Shown piece by piece: positions 12,059 to 20,574 of a DNA stretch of 34,820 bases. Numbering within the stretch: position 1 is the first letter of the stretch; each line of letters opens with the position of its first letter. The notes under the pieces are model-generated. The model did not search any database. It worked only from the letters and a program-made list of their open reading frames with translations, and was not told the origin of the DNA. The position numbers and the translations under genes were made by a program. Source of the stretch: a virus; IMG/VR virus record IMGVR_UViG_3300017989_000265, positions 1 to 34,820 of that record; one strand, given 5' to 3'.

Positions 12059-12334
12059 GTGGCAGACGGGAGAAAAAATAACAAAGGTAAAAAGGGCAAC
12101 AGGGGAGGTAGACCATCTAAAGCCGAAGAACAAAAACTCATTGAGAAGTTAACCCCTTTAGAGCCTAAAGCGCACCAAGCCCTAAAGAATGCTATTGCAG
12201 CGGAAGAACAATGGGCGGTGAAACTTTTCTTTGAATATATGTACGGAAAGCCCCGACAGCAGCACGATGTTACAACAGGCGGCCAACCATTCCCAACCCC
12301 AATGATTATCGCGCCATCAATGGACGATGAATGA
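12059..12334 (+). CDS. Small terminase subunit
   Basis: 91 aa, from a GTG start. It has a basic, glycine-rich start (DGRKNNKGKKGNRGGRPSKAEEQKLIEKL), then EPKAHQALKNAIAAEEQWAVKLFFEYMYGKPRQQHDV, the typical helical core and tail of small terminases. It binds the packaging site and loads the large subunit. It overlaps the large subunit gene by 8 bases. It is on the short side for the family, and the start is uncertain because no in-frame ATG lies upstream. Confidence 0.75.
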   Translation: MADGRKNNKGKKGNRGGRPSKAEEQKLIEKLTPLEPKAHQALKNAIAAEEQWAVKLFFEYMYGKPRQQHDVTTGGQPFPTPMIIAPSMDDE

Positions 12335-13661
12335 GAATGCAATTCGGCTGTCTAAAAAGCAATGGCAGGCGTGGAATGCCCTTGAAAAGCCACACGTTGC
12401 GGAAGTCTTTGCCGGAGGTGGTGCAGGTGGGGGTAAATCCTACTTAGGCTGTCTTAGGCAGATATACCGAAGAACAACATACGCAGACACGCGCGGCTTT
12501 ATTGGTCGTGAAAGTTATACCGCCCTGCGGGACTCCACAATGAAGACATACTTTGCACTACTCGCAAAGATGGGATATGTGTCTGATGTTCACTATAAGT
12601 ACAACGCGCAAGAACACACCATTTATTTCAACAACGGCAGCGAACAGCACTTTAGGCACATGGCATGGCAGCCGTCCGACCCCGATTACAATAGATTTGG
12701 CTCAACAGAGTACACCGATGGCTTTGTCGATGAAGCGCCAGAAGTAGATGAACGCGCCTGCCAGGTGTTATTATCCCGGATGCGTTACAACCACCAAAAG
12801 CATGGCATCACAAAGGAACTGCTTTACACGGGCAATCCTGGGGAGAATTGGGTGAAGTATGCCTTTGTAATGGATGACCAGAATAGGCTTCTTGCTTTGC
12901 CACAACACCGCGAAAGGGTGCTATTTACCATATTTGACAACCCTGATGAGGAGTTGCGCGAATCATACCGCCAAACGCTTGAGCTGTTAGACGACTATGA
13001 CAAACAGCGTCTATTGTACGGTGATTGGACGGTGAACCCCAACATCGAACGCCCATTCGCATTTGCCTTTGAAGAAAGTAAGCACGTGTCAGCAGATGCC
13101 ATACAACGAGAAAACCTACCTATCAAAGTTAGTGTAGACTTCAACAGGCAGCCGTTCACCTGCATAATTGCGCACCTGTGGACTGACGAGCAAAGCCCAC
13201 ACCTGCACATCTTTAAAGAGATTGCCGTTGACAATGGCAGCATTGAAGAAATGGCCAGAAGGATTAAGGCAGTAGTGCAAAACCTTTTCAGCATTGAACT
13301 TACAGGTGATGCGATGGGGAACAATAAAACCGTCAAGGTGCGCGAAAGCGACAACAACACCATGTTTAGCGCGCTAAGGGATGCTTTGGGGATAACCGAA
13401 AAGCAGGTGCGTGTGGTGCGCAACCCATTCCACGTTGAAAGCAGGGAGCAATACAATTTAATGCTTGCAAGGCACCCTGACTTTAAAATACACCCATCCT
13501 GCACGGGGTTAATTCGAGATCACAAAATTGTTGAGGTTGACGAACATGGAAAGATTAAGAAGTCAGACCGCTCGCAGATAGCACAGCAGGCAGACTTCTT
13601 AGATTGTTCCCGCTATCTTTGCAACACCTTCTTAGCAAAGTACATCAACACGCTTAGGTAA
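12327..13661 (+). CDS. Large terminase subunit
   Basis: 444 aa. Walker A GGGAGGGKS at 30-38 and Walker B GFVDEAPE at 132-139 with its catalytic Glu give the packaging ATPase. The nuclease half has SVDFNRQP (about 270), LTGDAMGN (about 330) and a final ADFLDCSRY (about 425), the acidic residues of the RNase H-like fold. It pumps DNA into the prohead and cuts it. The family length is typical. It overlaps the small subunit gene by 8 bases. Confidence 0.95.
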   Translation: MNENAIRLSKKQWQAWNALEKPHVAEVFAGGGAGGGKSYLGCLRQIYRRTTYADTRGFIGRESYTALRDSTMKTYFALLAKMGYVSDVHYKYNAQEHTIYFNNGSEQHFRHMAWQPSDPDYNRFGSTEYTDGFVDEAPEVDERACQVLLSRMRYNHQKHGITKELLYTGNPGENWVKYAFVMDDQNRLLALPQHRERVLFTIFDNPDEELRESYRQTLELLDDYDKQRLLYGDWTVNPNIERPFAFAFEESKHVSADAIQRENLPIKVSVDFNRQPFTCIIAHLWTDEQSPHLHIFKEIAVDNGSIEEMARRIKAVVQNLFSIELTGDAMGNNKTVKVRESDNNTMFSALRDALGITEKQVRVVRNPFHVESREQYNLMLARHPDFKIHPSCTGLIRDHKIVEVDEHGKIKKSDRSQIAQQADFLDCSRYLCNTFLAKYINTLR

Positions 13662-13685: not shown

Positions 13686-14324
13686 ATGGAGTTTCACCTG
13701 TCAATGACCACGTGCCCCCGAAAGGAAAGCACAATAGTTAGGTCAATTGAATCCCTGTGGGAGTCTGGTTACGATGGAACCATTTCGGTGCATGACGACG
13801 AAGACAAGTCACTCGGTTGCTTTAGGAACTTTCACAAGGCACTCACCGCAGCGATAGATTCGGGTGCAGACATTGTAGGGCAAATCCCTGACGATATGCT
13901 ATTTCAAAATGGATGGCAAAAGGATGTAGAAAAGCACTTGAAAGGCGACCTAATCGGCTACCTCGCGCTGTATGTCCCAAAGGGATTGGGTGAAAGGTAC
14001 AAATTCACAAAGGGGATCAACGAAATTAACGGCGGTTGGGCATCGAGTTGGGGAGGGTGCTACCTAATGCCCCGCGAAAGCGCAAAGCAACTTGTTAGCC
14101 ACACCTTCTACCAACGCCACCTGCACAACGACTTTTCGCGCGATGAACAGCGGAAGTTATACAACTATGCCCCCAACAAACGCATTGACCATGTTGTGCC
14201 ACACGTAATGCATACGCTTGGCCTTAAACAGCTTTATTATGTGCCTTCAGTATGCGAACATATTGGAATGAAAAGTACAATAGGCCATAAACACACGGAT
14301 GCCGAAACAGCATACCGACCATGA
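13686..14324 (+). CDS. Glycosyltransferase-like protein
   Basis: 212 aa. The N-terminal strand-helix pattern (MEFHLSMTTCPRKESTIVRSIESL, then GTISVHDDED, GCFRNFHKAL and DIVGQIPDDMLFQNGW) fits a GT-A glycosyltransferase fold. D69-D70 in the IPDDMLF segment could be the nucleotide-sugar/metal site. The C-terminal part carries conserved-looking histidines. It would transfer a sugar to a virion or host acceptor. It starts 24 bases after the terminase and ends in a 4-base overlap (ATGA) with the ATP-grasp gene. Confidence 0.6.
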   Translation: MEFHLSMTTCPRKESTIVRSIESLWESGYDGTISVHDDEDKSLGCFRNFHKALTAAIDSGADIVGQIPDDMLFQNGWQKDVEKHLKGDLIGYLALYVPKGLGERYKFTKGINEINGGWASSWGGCYLMPRESAKQLVSHTFYQRHLHNDFSRDEQRKLYNYAPNKRIDHVVPHVMHTLGLKQLYYVPSVCEHIGMKSTIGHKHTDAETAYRP

Positions 14325-14983
14325 AAGGCTTCTACCCGAATACCCCTAAGACATGGAACCGCATTTCATGGGTAATGCGAAAAGGCGGCTACAAACACGC
14401 GCTGCGCTTCTATTGGGAAATAGCGACCATCTGCAAATGCGATAACACTATTCCCGGCATTAATCAACATTGCCGCGATTTGTCAAAGTCAAACGTGGAA
14501 AGGTGCTTTAAAAAGGCATTCGGCTACGGTTCATTTGTCGATCCATCATCGACGGGAAAGGCTGTAATAAAATCAGAAACAAACGCCGCGCACGATGGGG
14601 CTGTTGTTAATCTACCTTTTAAACTTAAAGAGGGTCAGGTCTGTCAAAAGTATCTGCCCTCGACTGTCGAGCATCGGGTGTTAATCATTTGGGGTGAACC
14701 TGTATGCGTTCTCGTGAAGCATTTAGAGCGACAATTTGCCGACAAATGCCGAATGAAATACGCCGAGTTGGGTGAGATATTTAACAGCGAAACACGGCGA
14801 CAAATAACAACCTTTGCGGAGTGCTTGGGGATGGATTATGGGGAACTTGATTTAATAAAGCACGATGGTAAGTGGTACATTATTGACGCGAACCAATGCC
14901 CTGGGTATAACGCCTCGTTATTTGATATGCCAGAATCAGACCAAATGAAATTCGTAAATTCGCACAAATCATTATTTGAATGA
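14321..14983 (+). CDS. ATP-grasp-like ligase
   Basis: 220 aa. The C-terminal motif GELDLIKHDGKWYIIDANQ places D177, D189 and N191 in the Mg-ATP pattern of ATP-grasp enzymes (peptide and amino acid ligases, among others). GKAVIKSETNAAHDGAVV near residue 90 and the region QKYLPSTVEHRVLIIWG fit the earlier nucleotide-binding strands. Such enzymes join a carboxylate to an amine or similar via an acyl phosphate. The acceptor is unknown. It is coupled by 4-base overlaps to the genes on both sides. Confidence 0.6.
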   Translation: MKGFYPNTPKTWNRISWVMRKGGYKHALRFYWEIATICKCDNTIPGINQHCRDLSKSNVERCFKKAFGYGSFVDPSSTGKAVIKSETNAAHDGAVVNLPFKLKEGQVCQKYLPSTVEHRVLIIWGEPVCVLVKHLERQFADKCRMKYAELGEIFNSETRRQITTFAECLGMDYGELDLIKHDGKWYIIDANQCPGYNASLFDMPESDQMKFVNSHKSLFE

Positions 14984-15429
14984 AAGTAGTAGGAATAGGA
15001 TTGCCAAAGACAGGCACAACAACCTTAAAGAAGGCACTCGAAATACTTGGGGTTGAGCATGAAGTTGGCGATCACGTCCATCTATACAATGAAACCCCCA
15101 AAGCAGACATCTACATTCTGACCGTCCGAGAAAGCGTTGACACATGGTTTGACAGCGTAAAGCGGTGGGATAAGATAGTAGGAAACAGACCTGAAATAAG
15201 GGTGCAAAGGTTGCGGATGTATGGCAGCGACACGCCAAACGAATCATGGAAAAGTAAATACGAAAAGCACGCCCGCAAGTGGATGAAGTCAAAGGATAAA
15301 ACCGTTGAATTAATGTGCTGGGATTGCGGTCAAGGGTGGGAGGACTTGTGTGCAGTATTAGGTTTGCCAATTCCTAAAGTGCCATTCCCGCACGCTAACA
15401 AAAACACACGATATGCGAAAGGTGCTTAA
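14980..15429 (+). CDS. Sulfotransferase-like P-loop protein
   Basis: 149 aa. PKTGTTTL at 9-16 matches the 5'-phosphosulfate loop of PAPS-dependent sulfotransferases, and LTVRESVDTWFDSV (R50, S59) fits the 3'-phosphate-binding segment. The end has WEDLCAVLGLPIPKVPFPHANK, a common sulfotransferase C-terminal pattern. It is short for the family (usually 200-300 aa), so it may be a minimal or diverged member. It would move sulfate from PAPS to a hydroxyl, for instance on a sugar. Starts by 4-base overlap. Confidence 0.7.
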   Translation: MKVVGIGLPKTGTTTLKKALEILGVEHEVGDHVHLYNETPKADIYILTVRESVDTWFDSVKRWDKIVGNRPEIRVQRLRMYGSDTPNESWKSKYEKHARKWMKSKDKTVELMCWDCGQGWEDLCAVLGLPIPKVPFPHANKNTRYAKGA

Positions 15430-15730
15430 ATCGAAAGTAACTTGCAAGGTACACCGTGCTTCACTTGATTATGAAGGCAGCGTAACACTTCCAAAGGCAT
15501 TGTGCGACGACTTAAACATCAAAGCAGGTGAGTTTGTGGACATCAACAACAAGGTCAACGGCAACAGGATTAGCACGTATGTCATTTATGGGGATAGCGT
15601 GCAGATAAACGGCGCAGCGGCGCACCTGTTTGAGGATGGCGACATTATCCACATAAATTCGTACATTTGGACTAAGGCAGACCAATGGCCGGAGCCAATT
15701 ATTAAAGACCTGACAAATGCCACTACCTAA
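15413..15730 (+). CDS. Aspartate 1-decarboxylase (PanD)-like protein
   Basis: 105 aa (bacterial PanD is about 126). DYEGSVTL (19-26) contains the Gly-Ser pair (22-23) at which PanD cleaves itself to make its pyruvoyl group, with the preceding Tyr (20). GNRISTYVI (50-58) keeps the Arg, Thr and Tyr of the active site, and INGAAAH (65-71) matches the conserved NGAAA. GDIIHINSY (76-84) is the following strand. The catalytic Lys near the N-terminus may be K8 if one gap is allowed. PanD makes beta-alanine from aspartate. The C-terminus is shortened. It overlaps the sulfotransferase gene by 17 bases. Confidence 0.7.
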   Translation: MRKVLKSKVTCKVHRASLDYEGSVTLPKALCDDLNIKAGEFVDINNKVNGNRISTYVIYGDSVQINGAAAHLFEDGDIIHINSYIWTKADQWPEPIIKDLTNATT

Positions 15731-15854
15731 GCCCCGTGCAAACGAATCTAAAAGCAAATTCATCGACAGGTGTATGGATGATGCAAAGATGCGCGAAGAG
15801 TACACCGATGTAAAGCAGCGTTATGCAGTTTGTCAAAACCAATGGGATAAATGA
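15717..15854 (+). CDS. 45-aa protein with a prohead-protease-type N-terminal motif
   Basis: MPLPKPRANESKSKFIDRCM followed by EEYTDVKQRYAVCQNQW matches the N-terminal leader found on phage prohead protease and other head-maturation proteins (P-K-x-x-E-S-x-x-F-I-x-R-C-M ... AVCxxQW). Here only the leader exists as a free gene. It overlaps the PanD-like gene by 14 bases and the next start by 4 (ATGA), so it is coupled. Role unclear; perhaps a head-assembly or cargo peptide. Confidence 0.6.
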   Translation: MPLPKPRANESKSKFIDRCMDDAKMREEYTDVKQRYAVCQNQWDK

Positions 15855-16054
15855 AGCCTACCGTGAAACGATTTAAGTTAGGGGATTGCGTGTACCACGT
15901 AACCGACCCCGACCAATTGCAAATGATAGTTACAGGCATCCTCCACGAGCTTGGCGGCGGCATCTCTTACCGATGCTCTACAGGCGGTGATTTAGGCTAT
16001 TATTTTGCAGAAGAATTGACTAAAGAACGAGTTTACCGACCAGAATTAAACTGA
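15851..16054 (+). CDS. Hypothetical protein
   Basis: 67 aa, mostly beta. KFKLGDCVYHVTDPDQLQMIVTGI resembles a small SH3-like barrel of phage proteins, then SYRCSTGGDLGYYFAEELTKERV. No function can be given. It overlaps the preceding gene by 4 bases. Confidence 0.6.
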   Translation: MKPTVKRFKLGDCVYHVTDPDQLQMIVTGILHELGGGISYRCSTGGDLGYYFAEELTKERVYRPELN

Positions 16055-16055
16055 T

Positions 16056-16400
16056 ATGGCACAATGCAGCCCATGCGGGCAATTTAAAGACGTGTACCAA
16101 TGCGGTGCTGAACTAAACATCGGCACAGTACCCGCAGGAACTTACATTGTAATGATTACCGATCTAACGAGCGGCTTTAGGAGAATAGTTAGCAAGGTGC
16201 TTGCAAGCAAGGATGTAATAAGCGTAAACATCAGCGACCTTGCAACAGATCACACCTACCGGATAGAGGTTGAGGTGGCATCCACACAAGCAAACCAACC
16301 CTTTGACATTGACGGCACAGATTACACGTGTGGGGAGTTTGTGATACGGCAACTCGAAGGGGATGCGCCAGACGAACAGAACCTAATCCCTAAAGCATGA
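16056..16400 (+). CDS. Hypothetical beta-rich, possibly virion-associated protein
   Basis: 114 aa. The Cys-containing start (MAQCSPCGQFKDVYQCG) and later strands (GTYIVMITDLTSGFRR, TYRIEVEV, CGEFVIRQLEG) suggest a small beta-sandwich of the kind used as capsid or tail decoration. It sits in the late operon and overlaps the membrane protein gene by 4 bases. Not recognised as a family. Confidence 0.55.
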   Translation: MAQCSPCGQFKDVYQCGAELNIGTVPAGTYIVMITDLTSGFRRIVSKVLASKDVISVNISDLATDHTYRIEVEVASTQANQPFDIDGTDYTCGEFVIRQLEGDAPDEQNLIPKA

Positions 16401-16696
16401 CACTCCTTAAGATTGTCATAATGAGCCTGACCTGTTTTGGCGCATTGCGGGCTATCAACACATTTCTTTGGAAGATTAAAGGTGTAGGGTTAGATGACAT
16501 CGAGCCGGACTTTTCAAAGTGGGAGCAATTTATCCTATCCCCTGTACTCTTTTGCGTGTACTGCACAGCGAGCTTTTGGGGGTCTTTGGCATACCTGGGG
16601 ATGGCAGCCAGCGGTTACGGGTTTAGCCTATTCGAGTGGCTTATTTGCGTCATTGCAACCTGTGGATTAAATGAGATAATCGAACGCAACACATGA
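16397..16696 (+). CDS. Small membrane protein
   Basis: 99 aa with about three hydrophobic segments (near 2-18, 45-70 and 76-92). FCVYCTASFWGSLAYLG contains CxxC next to a membrane segment, reminiscent of small phage and bacterial membrane proteins with a C-x-x-C-x-x-x-W pattern. A holin role is possible but not supported by anything else here. It overlaps both neighbours by 4 bases. Confidence 0.6.
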   Translation: MTLLKIVIMSLTCFGALRAINTFLWKIKGVGLDDIEPDFSKWEQFILSPVLFCVYCTASFWGSLAYLGMAASGYGFSLFEWLICVIATCGLNEIIERNT

Positions 16697-17349
16697 ACCT
16701 TTTCTACAAACTATTTTACAAAGGCTTTCTAAAGTACCACGAGGGGCATAAGCTCACTAAAGACGATTTGGTATATGCCTTTACAGACTTTGAAGGCAAC
16801 CGCTACTTTACATGGTCTGACAAGGGGCAAATCCCAAAGGTGCGTTATGACCGCTTAATGGAACTTACTATTTGGTGGGAGGCGAGGGTTGCACCCGAAA
16901 CAGTTGACCGAATGGCAGACGGCATAATTGAGGCTGCTGAACTATCCCTAACAGGTGAAAAGCCAGAAGACCGCAGCAAGATGGTAAGCAAGGTTATTGT
17001 ACTGGCTAATGAGTTGAAGTTGCGCAAGGAGAATGGCTTGCCGCAGGTCATTGCAAACGAAATGGCGGCTGTTTGGGCAATCCGTGAGGATGAAGACCCC
17101 GAAGTGATTAACAACCAAATTCACGAGGAAAAGGTCGATATGTTTGCACATGAAACTGCAATGGGTCGCAACTTTTTTTTTCGGCTGCCGAGGCTGATGA
17201 AACATTTAGATTTGTGGCGGGTGTCCAGAAACGAATTGAGGAAACTGTTCGCGGAATCGGAGACAAAGGAAAAGCGGATGGACTTGGTGATGAAGCAAAT
17301 TTTGTCAGACTTCTCATCCGAAACTACCATAGGGGGCAGCGGTCAATAA
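16693..17349 (+). CDS. Tail assembly chaperone, zero-frame product
   Basis: 218 aa. It lies just upstream of the tape measure, the standard place for the G-type chaperone that coats the tape measure during tail assembly. The sequence is helical and charged (TKDDLVYAFTDFEGNRYFTWSDKGQ, then KMVSKVIVLANELKLRKENGL). A run of nine T's (17173-17181) read as TTT TTT TTT gives a classic T-TTT-TTT slip site; the overlapping -1 frame continues 105 codons to 17498. Function assigned by position and slip site. Confidence 0.65.
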   Translation: MNLFYKLFYKGFLKYHEGHKLTKDDLVYAFTDFEGNRYFTWSDKGQIPKVRYDRLMELTIWWEARVAPETVDRMADGIIEAAELSLTGEKPEDRSKMVSKVIVLANELKLRKENGLPQVIANEMAAVWAIREDEDPEVINNQIHEEKVDMFAHETAMGRNFFFRLPRLMKHLDLWRVSRNELRKLFAESETKEKRMDLVMKQILSDFSSETTIGGSGQ

Positions 17350-17498
17350 TTTCAGAAATAAGCGACGATATAGAGAAAACCTATCGTCAATCAATTTTGA
17401 ATTACTTATCTTTGTTGCGAAAATTCGCAAACCATGCCCGAAGACATCAGACAGCGGCTAATACTGGACGTTCAAAAAACAATCGACGATCTAAATAA
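16693..17498 (+). CDS. Tail assembly chaperone, predicted -1 frameshift product (gpGT-like)
   Basis: Joined frames: 163 codons to the slip at 17176-17181, then the -1 frame from TCG at 17181, about 268 aa in total. The extension begins SAAEADETFRFVAGVQ and is hydrophilic and helix-prone, as real protein should be, ending in a basic tail (RSKNNRRSK). It overlaps the tape measure start by 65 bases. In phage lambda the longer GT protein binds the tape measure. Not proven by sequence. Confidence 0.55.
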
Positions 17499-20400
17499 GA
17501 TTATCGGTAAGACTGAGCAGCTTGGCACAGAAGTCAAAGAAACAGGGCAGGATGGTAGTCGCGCGATGGGTGACTATGCTACGGCACTTCAAAAGGCAGA
17601 GCGTGCAAGCAGATCACTCGAAAAGACAATCAACGAACAGGAACGGCTGACGAATGAATGGCGGCAGGAGCTTGTTCAGGTTGAACAGCAGCAAAAGAAT
17701 GTAGGGCGTGGCAGCCGCGAATACTTCCGTTTGCAGAAAGCCCAAAAAGACCTCAACAGGGCAATCAAGGAGAATGTACGCGACATTAAAGGTCTGCGCT
17801 TAGACAAGCGTGCTATTGACAGCAACATCCGCGACCTAAAGCGACAGGGGAAAGCCTTTGATGACACCCGCAAAAAGACCAACGCATTTGGGCGCGCTGT
17901 TAAGAATGTCGGTCGGTTCTTGCTTGCTGCATTTGCTGTTGATAGAATTATCTCGTTTGTCCGTTCCACGGTGCGTGCCATCGAGGAGTACCAAAGCGCG
18001 GTATCTGAACTAAGGGGAATCACCCAGGCAACAGACGAGGAGATTGAAAGCCTGACAAAGACGGCGCGCGAATTTGCAAAGACATCACAGTTTACGGCCA
18101 CACAAGTTGTCAAAGCACAGACCGAGCTTGCAAAGTTAGGGCGAACAGTTGACCAAATTAACGCCACAACCGAAGCGGTATTACTTTTAGCAACAGCCGC
18201 CGGAACAGATGTAGCCAATGCCGCAGAAGTTGCCGCCCAGGTGATGAACCAATTCGGGATTGAAAGCGAAAAGGCAGGCGAAGTAACAGATGTTTTAGCG
18301 CGGTCATTCACCAGTTCAGCACTTACCATTGATCGCTTTCAGGGCGCATTTAAGCAGGTTGGTACAACAGCCAACACCGTGGGTGCATCACTTGAAGAAA
18401 CAACCGCGGCGATTAGCGCGCTTGTTGACGCTGGTATCCCTGCTGAAAAGGCAGGCACAGACCTTCGCAACATTTACATAGCACTTGCAGAGGAGGGGTT
18501 AAGCTGGAACGAGGCACAGGAATTGCTTTTAAACAGCACCGACAAACTTTCAACCGCAACGGATCTGTTTGGCCGCCGTTCCGGTGCAGCGGGTATTGTC
18601 TTGGCAGAGCAAGCGCAAAAGATAGCCGATTTAACGGTCGCATATCAGAATGCAGAAGGCGCAGCGTCAGACCTTTCAGAGGCACAGTTGGACAATCTGA
18701 AAGGGGATAGGCTCATTCTTGCATCCAATTGGGAGGAGTTTATTTTGAGTGTTGAGGAGGGGACGGGGGTAGTAAGTGGTTTTTTGCGAAAATTCACACA
18801 AGCAGAGACGGAGATAGTAAAAGGTCTTAAAAATGTCACGAGAAGTGTGGATGATGTTAATGAATCCTACTCGAAAGGCATACTGGGGCGGCTTGATGAG
18901 GCAAATGAAGAAAGTAATTTCTTTGTTCAGCAATTGAAGTATTTTAATCTTTTATCGGATGGCGTTGGTGTGGTAGCAGAAGGGGAGCAAATCGTTAGAA
19001 AGTTGGCAGGAGCAACGGTGGAGATAACTGATGATTTGTTGATTTTAAACAAAGGCACTTCTGAAGAGGTTAAAAATAGAATAGACCTGCTAACAACAGA
19101 GCAAGCAAGGCTTCAAACCATATTTGCTGAAAATGACAAAATTGTTGATTTAGAAGTTAGGAAACTATTCCTGCAAGGCGATATAACACAAAAGCAGCGA
19201 GACAACCTTTTAGCCGTAAGAGGCACACTCGAAGAGCGCAGAAAGCTGTTAGAACAAATTGAAAAGGAAAACGGCCAATACACTAAGCAGGTTAAAATAA
19301 CTAAGGAGCTGCTAAAAGTAGAAGCCGAAAGAGTTGGTTTAGGATTGGCTACCGCGGAGCGAAATGCCACAATACTACTCGATCAACTCCGTGCAGAGTT
19401 AAGCGCAACAGAAAAGGCATTAGCAGCAAAAGAGGCAGCCAATGATGCGGATGTGCGCGGAAGGGAGCGTCTAAAGAAACGCATTGAGGAAATCAATTTA
19501 GAGATTATCCGAAGCGAGTTACAAGTGGCGCAGGCTCGTGAGGATGCAAAGCGTGAAGAAATAGCCCTGTTGCAGCGCATCACAGATAAAACCCCTGCTA
19601 TCCGCGCCGAAATAATACAGGCACAGACGGAGCTTGTGGGGCTTTCTCGTGCGGTGGATGACTTGCTTTTGAAGTGGGCAGAGGGCAATATAACAGACAT
19701 AGCTCTTAACCCTAATTTGGCTGGTGAAATAAATTTCTCAGAGGGCATTGAAAGCGAGACAGAGCAGATAGAGGAGGCTGTTTTAGGAATGAATGAGAGG
19801 CTGCAAGTGTCTTATCGGGAGTGGGCAGATCGAGTTATCGAAATATACAATGAATTAAAAGACACTGGAATAACAACACAAGAGGCTATTGCGATGGCTA
19901 ACAAAGAGTATAGCGCACAGATACTCCAAAACACCTTAGCGACCGCATCGGCAACTTTAAGCGCATTTGGAAGCGTGTTTGGTGGTATAGGTCAATTGCT
20001 TGGCGAAAGTGCCAAACAAAGCAAGGAGTTAACCTTATTTCAAATACTTTTACAAACAGCGGCAGGTATTGCCAATGCAGTAGCGCAAGCGCAGACAATA
20101 CCGCCACCTGGTAACGTGGCTGCTGTTGCAACTGGTATAGCATCTGTGCTTAGCGGAATTGCGCAGGCCAGAAGCTATTTACAACCAACACCATCCTTTA
20201 GCAATCCCACCGTGCAGGGGTTCGCAGAAGGTACGCCATATTTAAAGCGTGCAGGCGCACCAAAAGGTAGAGATACTATACCTGCCATGCTCGATGAGGG
20301 GGAGGCTGTTATACCAACTAAGCGAAACAAAGAAGCGCCTGGACTTGCAGCGGCATGGATTAGCGGGAATTTAGATGAGTGGGTGAATAGTTACGGTTTT

Positions 20401-20574
20401 GAGCAGCGCGTGAACAATATGCGTGTTGTTCATGTATCCAACAACAGCAACACATCCGCTTTAGACGATCACAGAATGGTCAATAGGTTGAGCCGTTCGG
20501 TTGACTTGCAACGCGAAACACTATATGAAATTCGCAAATTCAATAAATTCTCATCACGTAAACGCGCAGGTTAG
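17434..20574 (+). CDS. Tape measure protein
   Basis: 1046 aa. The N-terminal ~130 residues form coiled coil. Residues about 210-400 hold the TP901-type tape measure core (TKTAREFAKTSQFTATQVV, TEAVLLLATAAGTDVA, LARSFTSSALTIDRFQGAF, AISALVDAGIPAEKAGTDLRN). A long helical region follows, with a hydrophobic AGIANAVAQAQTIPPPGNVAAVATGIASVLSG, and then the common AEGTPYLKR...DTIPAMLDEGEAVIP tail motif. It sets tail length: about 1.5 angstrom per residue would give roughly 150 nm. Start chosen at the ATG after the overlapping chaperone frame. Confidence 0.9.
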   Translation: MPEDIRQRLILDVQKTIDDLNKIIGKTEQLGTEVKETGQDGSRAMGDYATALQKAERASRSLEKTINEQERLTNEWRQELVQVEQQQKNVGRGSREYFRLQKAQKDLNRAIKENVRDIKGLRLDKRAIDSNIRDLKRQGKAFDDTRKKTNAFGRAVKNVGRFLLAAFAVDRIISFVRSTVRAIEEYQSAVSELRGITQATDEEIESLTKTAREFAKTSQFTATQVVKAQTELAKLGRTVDQINATTEAVLLLATAAGTDVANAAEVAAQVMNQFGIESEKAGEVTDVLARSFTSSALTIDRFQGAFKQVGTTANTVGASLEETTAAISALVDAGIPAEKAGTDLRNIYIALAEEGLSWNEAQELLLNSTDKLSTATDLFGRRSGAAGIVLAEQAQKIADLTVAYQNAEGAASDLSEAQLDNLKGDRLILASNWEEFILSVEEGTGVVSGFLRKFTQAETEIVKGLKNVTRSVDDVNESYSKGILGRLDEANEESNFFVQQLKYFNLLSDGVGVVAEGEQIVRKLAGATVEITDDLLILNKGTSEEVKNRIDLLTTEQARLQTIFAENDKIVDLEVRKLFLQGDITQKQRDNLLAVRGTLEERRKLLEQIEKENGQYTKQVKITKELLKVEAERVGLGLATAERNATILLDQLRAELSATEKALAAKEAANDADVRGRERLKKRIEEINLEIIRSELQVAQAREDAKREEIALLQRITDKTPAIRAEIIQAQTELVGLSRAVDDLLLKWAEGNITDIALNPNLAGEINFSEGIESETEQIEEAVLGMNERLQVSYREWADRVIEIYNELKDTGITTQEAIAMANKEYSAQILQNTLATASATLSAFGSVFGGIGQLLGESAKQSKELTLFQILLQTAAGIANAVAQAQTIPPPGNVAAVATGIASVLSGIAQARSYLQPTPSFSNPTVQGFAEGTPYLKRAGAPKGRDTIPAMLDEGEAVIPTKRNKEAPGLAAAWISGNLDEWVNSYGFEQRVNNMRVVHVSNNSNTSALDDHRMVNRLSRSVDLQRETLYEIRKFNKFSSRKRAG

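Follow-up and report, generated by a model that had tools for sequence, protein, structure and literature searches.

Cargo cassettes with which phages alter sugar polymers are already known, and the formation of amide bonds is established for the ATP-grasp ligase superfamily. The closest described counterparts of the genes examined here are bacterial PanD, of the aspartate 1-decarboxylase family (PF02261; E. coli 1ppy, M. tuberculosis 2c45), phage PanD (Gordonia phage Jace gp87, Achromobacter phage 2-1 and T4-like marine contigs), ligases of the RimK/GshB/Ddl type, the Sulfotransfer_4 family (PF17784; 9kf1, SgdX2 and the schistosome SULT) and the surface-polysaccharide clusters of Bacteroidota. 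Thr57 is required for activation of PanD (PMC3975893), and the residues strictly conserved in PanD include Lys9, His11, Tyr22, Arg54, Tyr58 and Ile86 (PMC3314653). In the schistosome enzyme SmSULT, Asp91 hydrogen-bonds the accepting hydroxyl (PMC4618941). No relevant paper on phage PanD or on a beta-alanine auxiliary metabolic gene was found in the literature searched.

The DNA analysed (the window) is the whole of IMG/VR record IMGVR_UViG_3300017989_000265 (34,820 bases), which carries the terminase, portal and tape measure genes of a tailed phage on the plus strand, and genes for a DnaB helicase and a DNA methylase together with small genes on the minus strand. The favoured explanation of the four genes described below, which has perhaps an even chance of being correct, is that they form a 'moron' cargo cassette in the late operon, in which a probable glycan-tailoring trio is accompanied by a captured PanD that evolves fast. 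The features of the region are as follows.

12327..13661, plus strand: TerL, left flank of the cassette (phrog_979 E 2e-27, PF04466 2.4e-8)
13686..14324, plus strand: putative GT-A-like glycosyltransferase, 212 aa (phrog_854 E 0.0099, PDD motif)
14321..14983, plus strand: predicted ATP-grasp-type ligase of an uncatalogued family, 220 aa (relatives, invariant residues, weak RimK/Ins134_P3_kin/Ddl matches)
14980..15429, plus strand: shortened Sulfotransfer_4-like protein, 149 aa (PF17784 E 3e-21)
15413..15730, plus strand: divergent PanD of the aspartate 1-decarboxylase family, 105 aa (PF02261 E 3.9e-24)
15476..15481, plus strand: Gly22-Ser23 codons in PanD, aligned with the self-cleavage pair Gly24-Ser25
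15717..15854, plus strand: 45-aa ORF, right boundary of the cassette (likeness by eye)
15851..16054, plus strand: 67-aa ORF without a family match
16056..16400, plus strand: 114-aa late gene (hhalign probability 66%, E 5.5e-5 against the L002, L008 and L009 counterparts)
16397..16696, plus strand: 99-aa membrane-like protein, conserved flank (L002 E 7e-4, L009 E 2e-6)
16693..17349, plus strand: 218-aa protein upstream of the tape measure gene, conserved flank (L008 1e-13, L009 2e-7, L002 3e-7)
17434..20574, plus strand: tape measure protein (phrog_1533 5e-52)

A four-gene insertion between the terminase and tape measure genes

The original prediction had placed four consecutive overlapping genes at 13686-15730, and these coordinates proved exact, with overlaps of 4, 4 and 17 bases in the order GT-like, ATP-grasp-like, sulfotransferase-like and PanD. 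All four are long ORFs running in one direction in the late operon, and for the predicted PanD and sulfotransferase-like proteins chance is excluded by their E-values. As PanD also shares 14 bases with the next small ORF (15717-15854), the coupling is a trait of the whole late operon and not of the four genes alone. The base and codon composition of the cassette was equal to that of the rest of the phage, indicating that it is not a recent graft. No mobile-element-type repeats were found bounding the cassette, no Rfam or tRNA genes were found in the window, and promoters of the Bacteroidota type were not enriched.

Relatives of the window TerL sharing 32-34% identity were found, using a two-sequence profile, in the phages L002, L008 and L009. 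The gene order in all three is TerL, a gene of ~120 aa, a membrane-like gene of ~100 aa, a gene of ~200 aa and the tape measure gene, and the same flank genes are present in the window. The 114-aa gene of the window matched L002 alone only weakly, whereas the profile comparison with L002, L008 and L009 reached the E-value listed above; its counterpart is directly after TerL in L002 and L008, and after one small ORF in L009. The distance from TerL to the ~200-aa gene is 3.0 kb in the window compared with 0.6-1.1 kb in these relatives, the extra DNA consisting of the four genes and two small ORFs. One of these, the 45-aa ORF, resembles in kind a 46-aa ORF found right after TerL in L011-L012, with a C..D...YA(V/I)C pattern recognised by eye and unscored. 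PanD and Sulfotransfer_4 were not found in the L002, L008 and L009 records in a search for which the window served as positive control. As three related phages keep TerL near the same downstream genes without the four, the four genes are a cargo cassette inserted between TerL and the genes that precede the tape measure gene.

In L008, different glycan-type genes (DUF6492-like, Methyltransf_24 and FkbM) are located directly upstream of TerL, suggesting that this neighbourhood accepts such cargo. The L008 set (L008:4925-7640) includes two GT-like ORFs, one of them DUF6492-like, and Methyltransf_24 and FkbM methyltransferases.

Elsewhere in the window, a gene at 142-1020 on the minus strand encodes a protein of the PAPS-reductase/PP-loop family (phrog_424, 7.4e-25) with an SGGKTS loop, and the region from this gene through its neighbours up to 2282 is AT-richer than the remaining phage (GC 0.33-0.385).

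A candidate glycan-tailoring trio

The first protein of the cassette gave one weak PHROG match (phrog_854, glucosyltransferase, E 0.0099, residues 39-207), and a PDD motif can be read from its sequence. No relatives were found in sequence searches, a single-sequence scan of IMG/VR among them, and an AF2 model built from the single sequence was of low confidence (pLDDT 39.7). The earlier assignment of this 212-aa protein as a GT-A-like transferase is, on this evidence, unproven.

For the protein originally predicted to be an ATP-grasp ligase, no single match exceeded a cut-off, the best matches to known families being at E 0.032 to 0.055 and the RimK and Ddl matches in PDB at E 0.14-0.7. However, all of the credible weak superfamily matches were to ATP-grasp proteins (including RimK, Ins134_P3_kin and Ddl), and one of its relatives matches RimK at 6.6e-4, so that identification of the 14321-14983 product as an ATP-grasp-type ligase is supported at the level of sequence. 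The family has relatives with about 30-37% identity (L174-L178 and L190-L193); by profile, five of the 395 Bacteroidota genomes searched carry them, as do four phages in IMG/VR, the phage relatives being detected with a profile to which the Bacteroidota relatives had been added. Residues K84, S85, N88, R119, E175, D177 and D189 are invariant in ten ATP-grasp-like sequences, and N191 is nearly so; by analogy, the conserved Lys and Arg columns, and the acidic/Asn columns as metal-binding positions, would fit the motifs of ATP-grasp enzymes. An AF2 model from a five-row alignment was of low confidence (pLDDT 43, pTM 0.32). The likeness to RimK/GshB/Ddl-type ligases lies in the Lys of the first strand, the Arg, the late acidic residues and D-x-N-x-x-P, but the window family passes no cut-off, has its own motif (KSxxNxxHDG) and is found beside glycosyltransferases.

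This ATP-grasp family is without a Pfam entry, and its full motif, KSxxNxxHDG ... DYGELD ... D-x-N-x-x-P, is common to phages and Bacteroidota polysaccharide loci.

The family is linked to GT clusters, in a small sample of four phage loci (two of them near-copies) and five cellular loci (two with Pfam-confirmed GTs). In phage L190, the ATP-grasp-like gene lies within 4 kb of GT2, DUF707 and DUF7164 genes, in the near-copies L192 and L193 it is found among GT9, Mannosyl_trans3 and GT8 genes, and in L191 an FkbM methyltransferase gene is about 2.3 kb away. Among the Bacteroidota loci, the gene overlaps a GT4 gene in L199 and in L201 is situated between GT4 and GT2 genes with two sulfotransferases upstream, the row there being two sulfotransferases, GT2, GT4, ATP-grasp and GT2 (the first GT2 read by eye). 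No sugar genes were found beside it in L200 and L203, and no GT near it was confirmed in L202. Bacteroidota surface-polysaccharide clusters such as L201 thus resemble the cassette in that this ATP-grasp is lined up with sulfotransferases, GT2 and GT4; however, they are larger and chromosomal, carry no PanD, and their sulfotransferases belong to other Pfam families.

The third gene product, given in the original prediction as a PAPS-type sulfotransferase, is a homologue of such enzymes (PF17784 E 3e-21, 76.7 bits against a cut-off of 22.8; PDB 9kf1 6e-12) but is internally shortened, with the acceptor-site segment missing. It shares with the Sulfotransfer_4 family the N-terminal KTGTTTL nucleotide loop, the RES motif and the C-terminal GW..LC...P..PFPHAN block, but covers only positions 1-29 and 94-213 of PF17784, whereas in relatives from G418, G375 and G162 the match extends over at least 1-212. 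The segment corresponding to positions 30-93 was likewise absent from the window protein on alignment with L181/L182, and in relatives this stretch holds a D-P motif that aligns near Asp91 of SmSULT. Judged by these alignments, the 149-aa protein could be altered, specialised or inactive. Two sulfotransferase relatives adjoin sugar-related genes, namely a GT-like gene (L204) and a UDP-glucose dehydrogenase gene (L206).

The best clue to function is that relatives of both the ATP-grasp and the sulfotransferase-like proteins are found beside polysaccharide-type genes, so that these two proteins and the GT-like one plausibly form a glycan-tailoring set. The cassette would be translated together with the late genes, and the trio would tailor a sugar polymer, presumably either a virion glycan or, late in infection, a polymer of the host envelope. 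The GT-like protein would transfer a sugar, the ATP-grasp protein would form an ATP-driven amide or peptide bond, presumably on an acidic or amino sugar, and the sulfotransferase-like protein would transfer sulfate or bind a sulfonucleotide, the substrates of all three being presumptive.

It is very improbable that the cassette acts instead on phage DNA, through hypermodification with sugar and amino acid, and not on a surface polymer. Such a role would be in keeping with the name of phrog_854, with the contact between the cassette and the terminase gene, and with the ParB- and GNAT-type neighbours of PanD (gp87) in Gordonia phage Jace. However, the only base-modification enzyme found in the scanned genes was an N6/N4 methylase, with no hydroxymethylase or base kinase, and the ATP-grasp relatives are located in polysaccharide clusters.

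A divergent PanD

The fourth gene product had been predicted to be a PanD homologue with a Gly-Ser self-cleavage pair, and this was borne out. The protein matches PF02261 over residues 2-91 (E 3.9e-24, 85.2 bits, cut-off 25) and E. coli PanD (1ppy/1pt1) at E about 5e-11, which makes its membership of the PanD family certain by sequence. As it scored 65.5 bits against the TIGR00223 equivalog model, below the cut-off of 106, it is a PanD homologue and not a safe equivalog. Its Gly22-Ser23 aligns with the E. coli cleavage pair, and K9, Y22, G24, S25, R54, T57, Y58, N72, G73 and A76 (E. coli numbers) are all kept, the Thr of an STY stretch aligning with Thr57.

Although homologous to bacterial PanD over its whole length, the 105-aa window protein sits in a phage late operon and differs at several positions. 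His11, found in every other PanD covering the site (80/80 cellular and 80/80 viral, 160/160 in all), has been lost through a one-residue deletion, a 4-aa deletion has occurred in the hairpin before N72, W47 is replaced by Asn and Ile86 by His. The terminal branch of the window PanD is the longest in the tree, at 3.06 against a median of 0.12. It is nearest by path to Bacteroidota PanDs, but the branch is too long for safe placement, and it stands apart from the other phage PanDs. From its sequence, the window PanD could be altered, specialised or inactive, and, as the sulfotransferase-like protein is without its acceptor-site segment and PanD without His11, either may be inactive.

These losses, together with the His at position 86, the shortened hairpin and the long PanD branch, would also suit a collection of hitchhikers, in which PanD and the sulfotransferase no longer catalyse, or are on the way to losing this activity, and are maybe kept as binding or structural proteins. 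This is nevertheless unlikely, as neutral decay at such divergence would not have left all four frames open and the self-cleavage residues exactly preserved. Under the favoured reading of a cargo cassette with a captured PanD, the gene would derive from a cellular, probably Bacteroidota-like, panD that has diverged fast while keeping its self-cleavage machinery, and the protein would most likely still form the pyruvoyl enzyme, its active site being altered or weakened.

PanD in other phages and its link to the cassette

Single-sequence scans of IMG/VR for relatives of PanD, the ATP-grasp protein and the GT-like protein returned nothing, whereas a profile scan found PanD in at least 97 viral contigs, of which 80 were kept. 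In about 37 loci from T4-like phages (most of L014-L055, for example L043:8001-8270 and L036:7998-8339), PanD is located in the baseplate operon between a tail protein gene with two small ORFs and the gp5 baseplate hub gene, and in about ten others, also T4-like (L079-L084 and L089-L093), it lies between the gp45 sliding clamp and gp44 clamp loader genes. A longer PanD of 170-197 aa occurs in L057-L074 and L086, in many cases near genes for a dihydroorotate dehydrogenase, a 145-aa protein and an AAA_5 ATPase, and further neighbourhoods include PhoH or GNAT/ParB genes. The catalytic residues are kept in viral PanDs wherever alignment columns exist, and dN/dS was about 0.1 in three viral groups. 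Phage PanD is a recurrent gene under purifying selection in several lineages, and its usual context differs from this cassette.

Most PanD matches in INPHARED were rejected as likely host contamination (e.g. L005, with panC beside panD), and the only named phage PanDs used were those of Jace and Achromobacter phage 2-1. Two large phage contigs, L039 and L054, carry a Bacteroidota-type PanD near a NUDIX-like gene, and in L054 the longest ORF joins PanD to a domain that precedes it. In L042 (3785-12698), the genes near PanD include PhoH, a GT8-like gene and, as judged by eye, AMP-ligase-like ORFs and an apparent carbamoyltransferase, and this neighbourhood is possibly another small-molecule decoration set.

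The phage PanDs resemble that of the window in being viral with the catalytic residues kept, but they retain His11, group apart from it, and occur in baseplate, clamp or metabolic contexts without GT, ATP-grasp or sulfotransferase genes. No relatives of the three other cassette genes were found in the PanD-bearing viruses examined, and Sulfotransfer_4 (PF17784) had no match in 49 virus records in a scan that had no positive control. Recurrence in several unrelated contexts without these partners, with catalytic residues kept and low dN/dS, is what would be expected if the window PanD were a stand-alone auxiliary metabolic gene raising the flow from beta-alanine through pantothenate to CoA, its adjacency to the trio being accidental. 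This reading is somewhat unlikely, as the window PanD does not group with phage PanDs, having a long branch nearest to Bacteroidota by path, it alone is without His11 and so may not make beta-alanine, and it is expressed with the late genes, at a stage when supplying a vitamin would be of little use.

The original prediction had further joined the four genes in a pathway. Beta-alanine produced by PanD would be attached by the ATP-grasp ligase, presumably to a glycan or peptide, and the GT and sulfotransferase would contribute sugar and sulfate. The overlapping adjacency of the genes, the amide chemistry of the ATP-grasp superfamily and the resemblance of the trio to a Bacteroidota cluster with sulfotransferase, GT and ATP-grasp genes all point towards it. 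However, PanD was present in none of the ATP-grasp-family loci examined, His11 and the sulfotransferase segment are lost, and a second phage with the four-gene set was not found in a thin coverage of related phages. Occurrence in unrelated contexts, which would count against the pathway, was seen for PanD but not for the ATP-grasp/GT part. As TerL relatives are without the four genes and no relative carries the set, the beta-alanine, ligase and sulfate pathway is unsupported as a unit and improbable. It is also decidedly improbable that PanD, as a specialised pyruvoyl decarboxylase whose active site has been remodelled, supplies a small amine, which the ATP-grasp protein would join to a transferase-built glycan while the mini-sulfotransferase adds or recognises sulfate. 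In the favoured cargo cassette, PanD may feed the ligase, feed CoA or be a rider, any link to the other three genes being conjectural.

If true, the amine, ligase and sulfate route would be a new kind of glycan decoration on the virion or host envelope. A pyruvoyl decarboxylase, an ATP-grasp ligase and a sulfotransferase in one cassette would point to phage or host surface chemistry not seen before, and the recurrent, selected phage PanD raises the question of whether it serves to supply beta-alanine for CoA or has another job.
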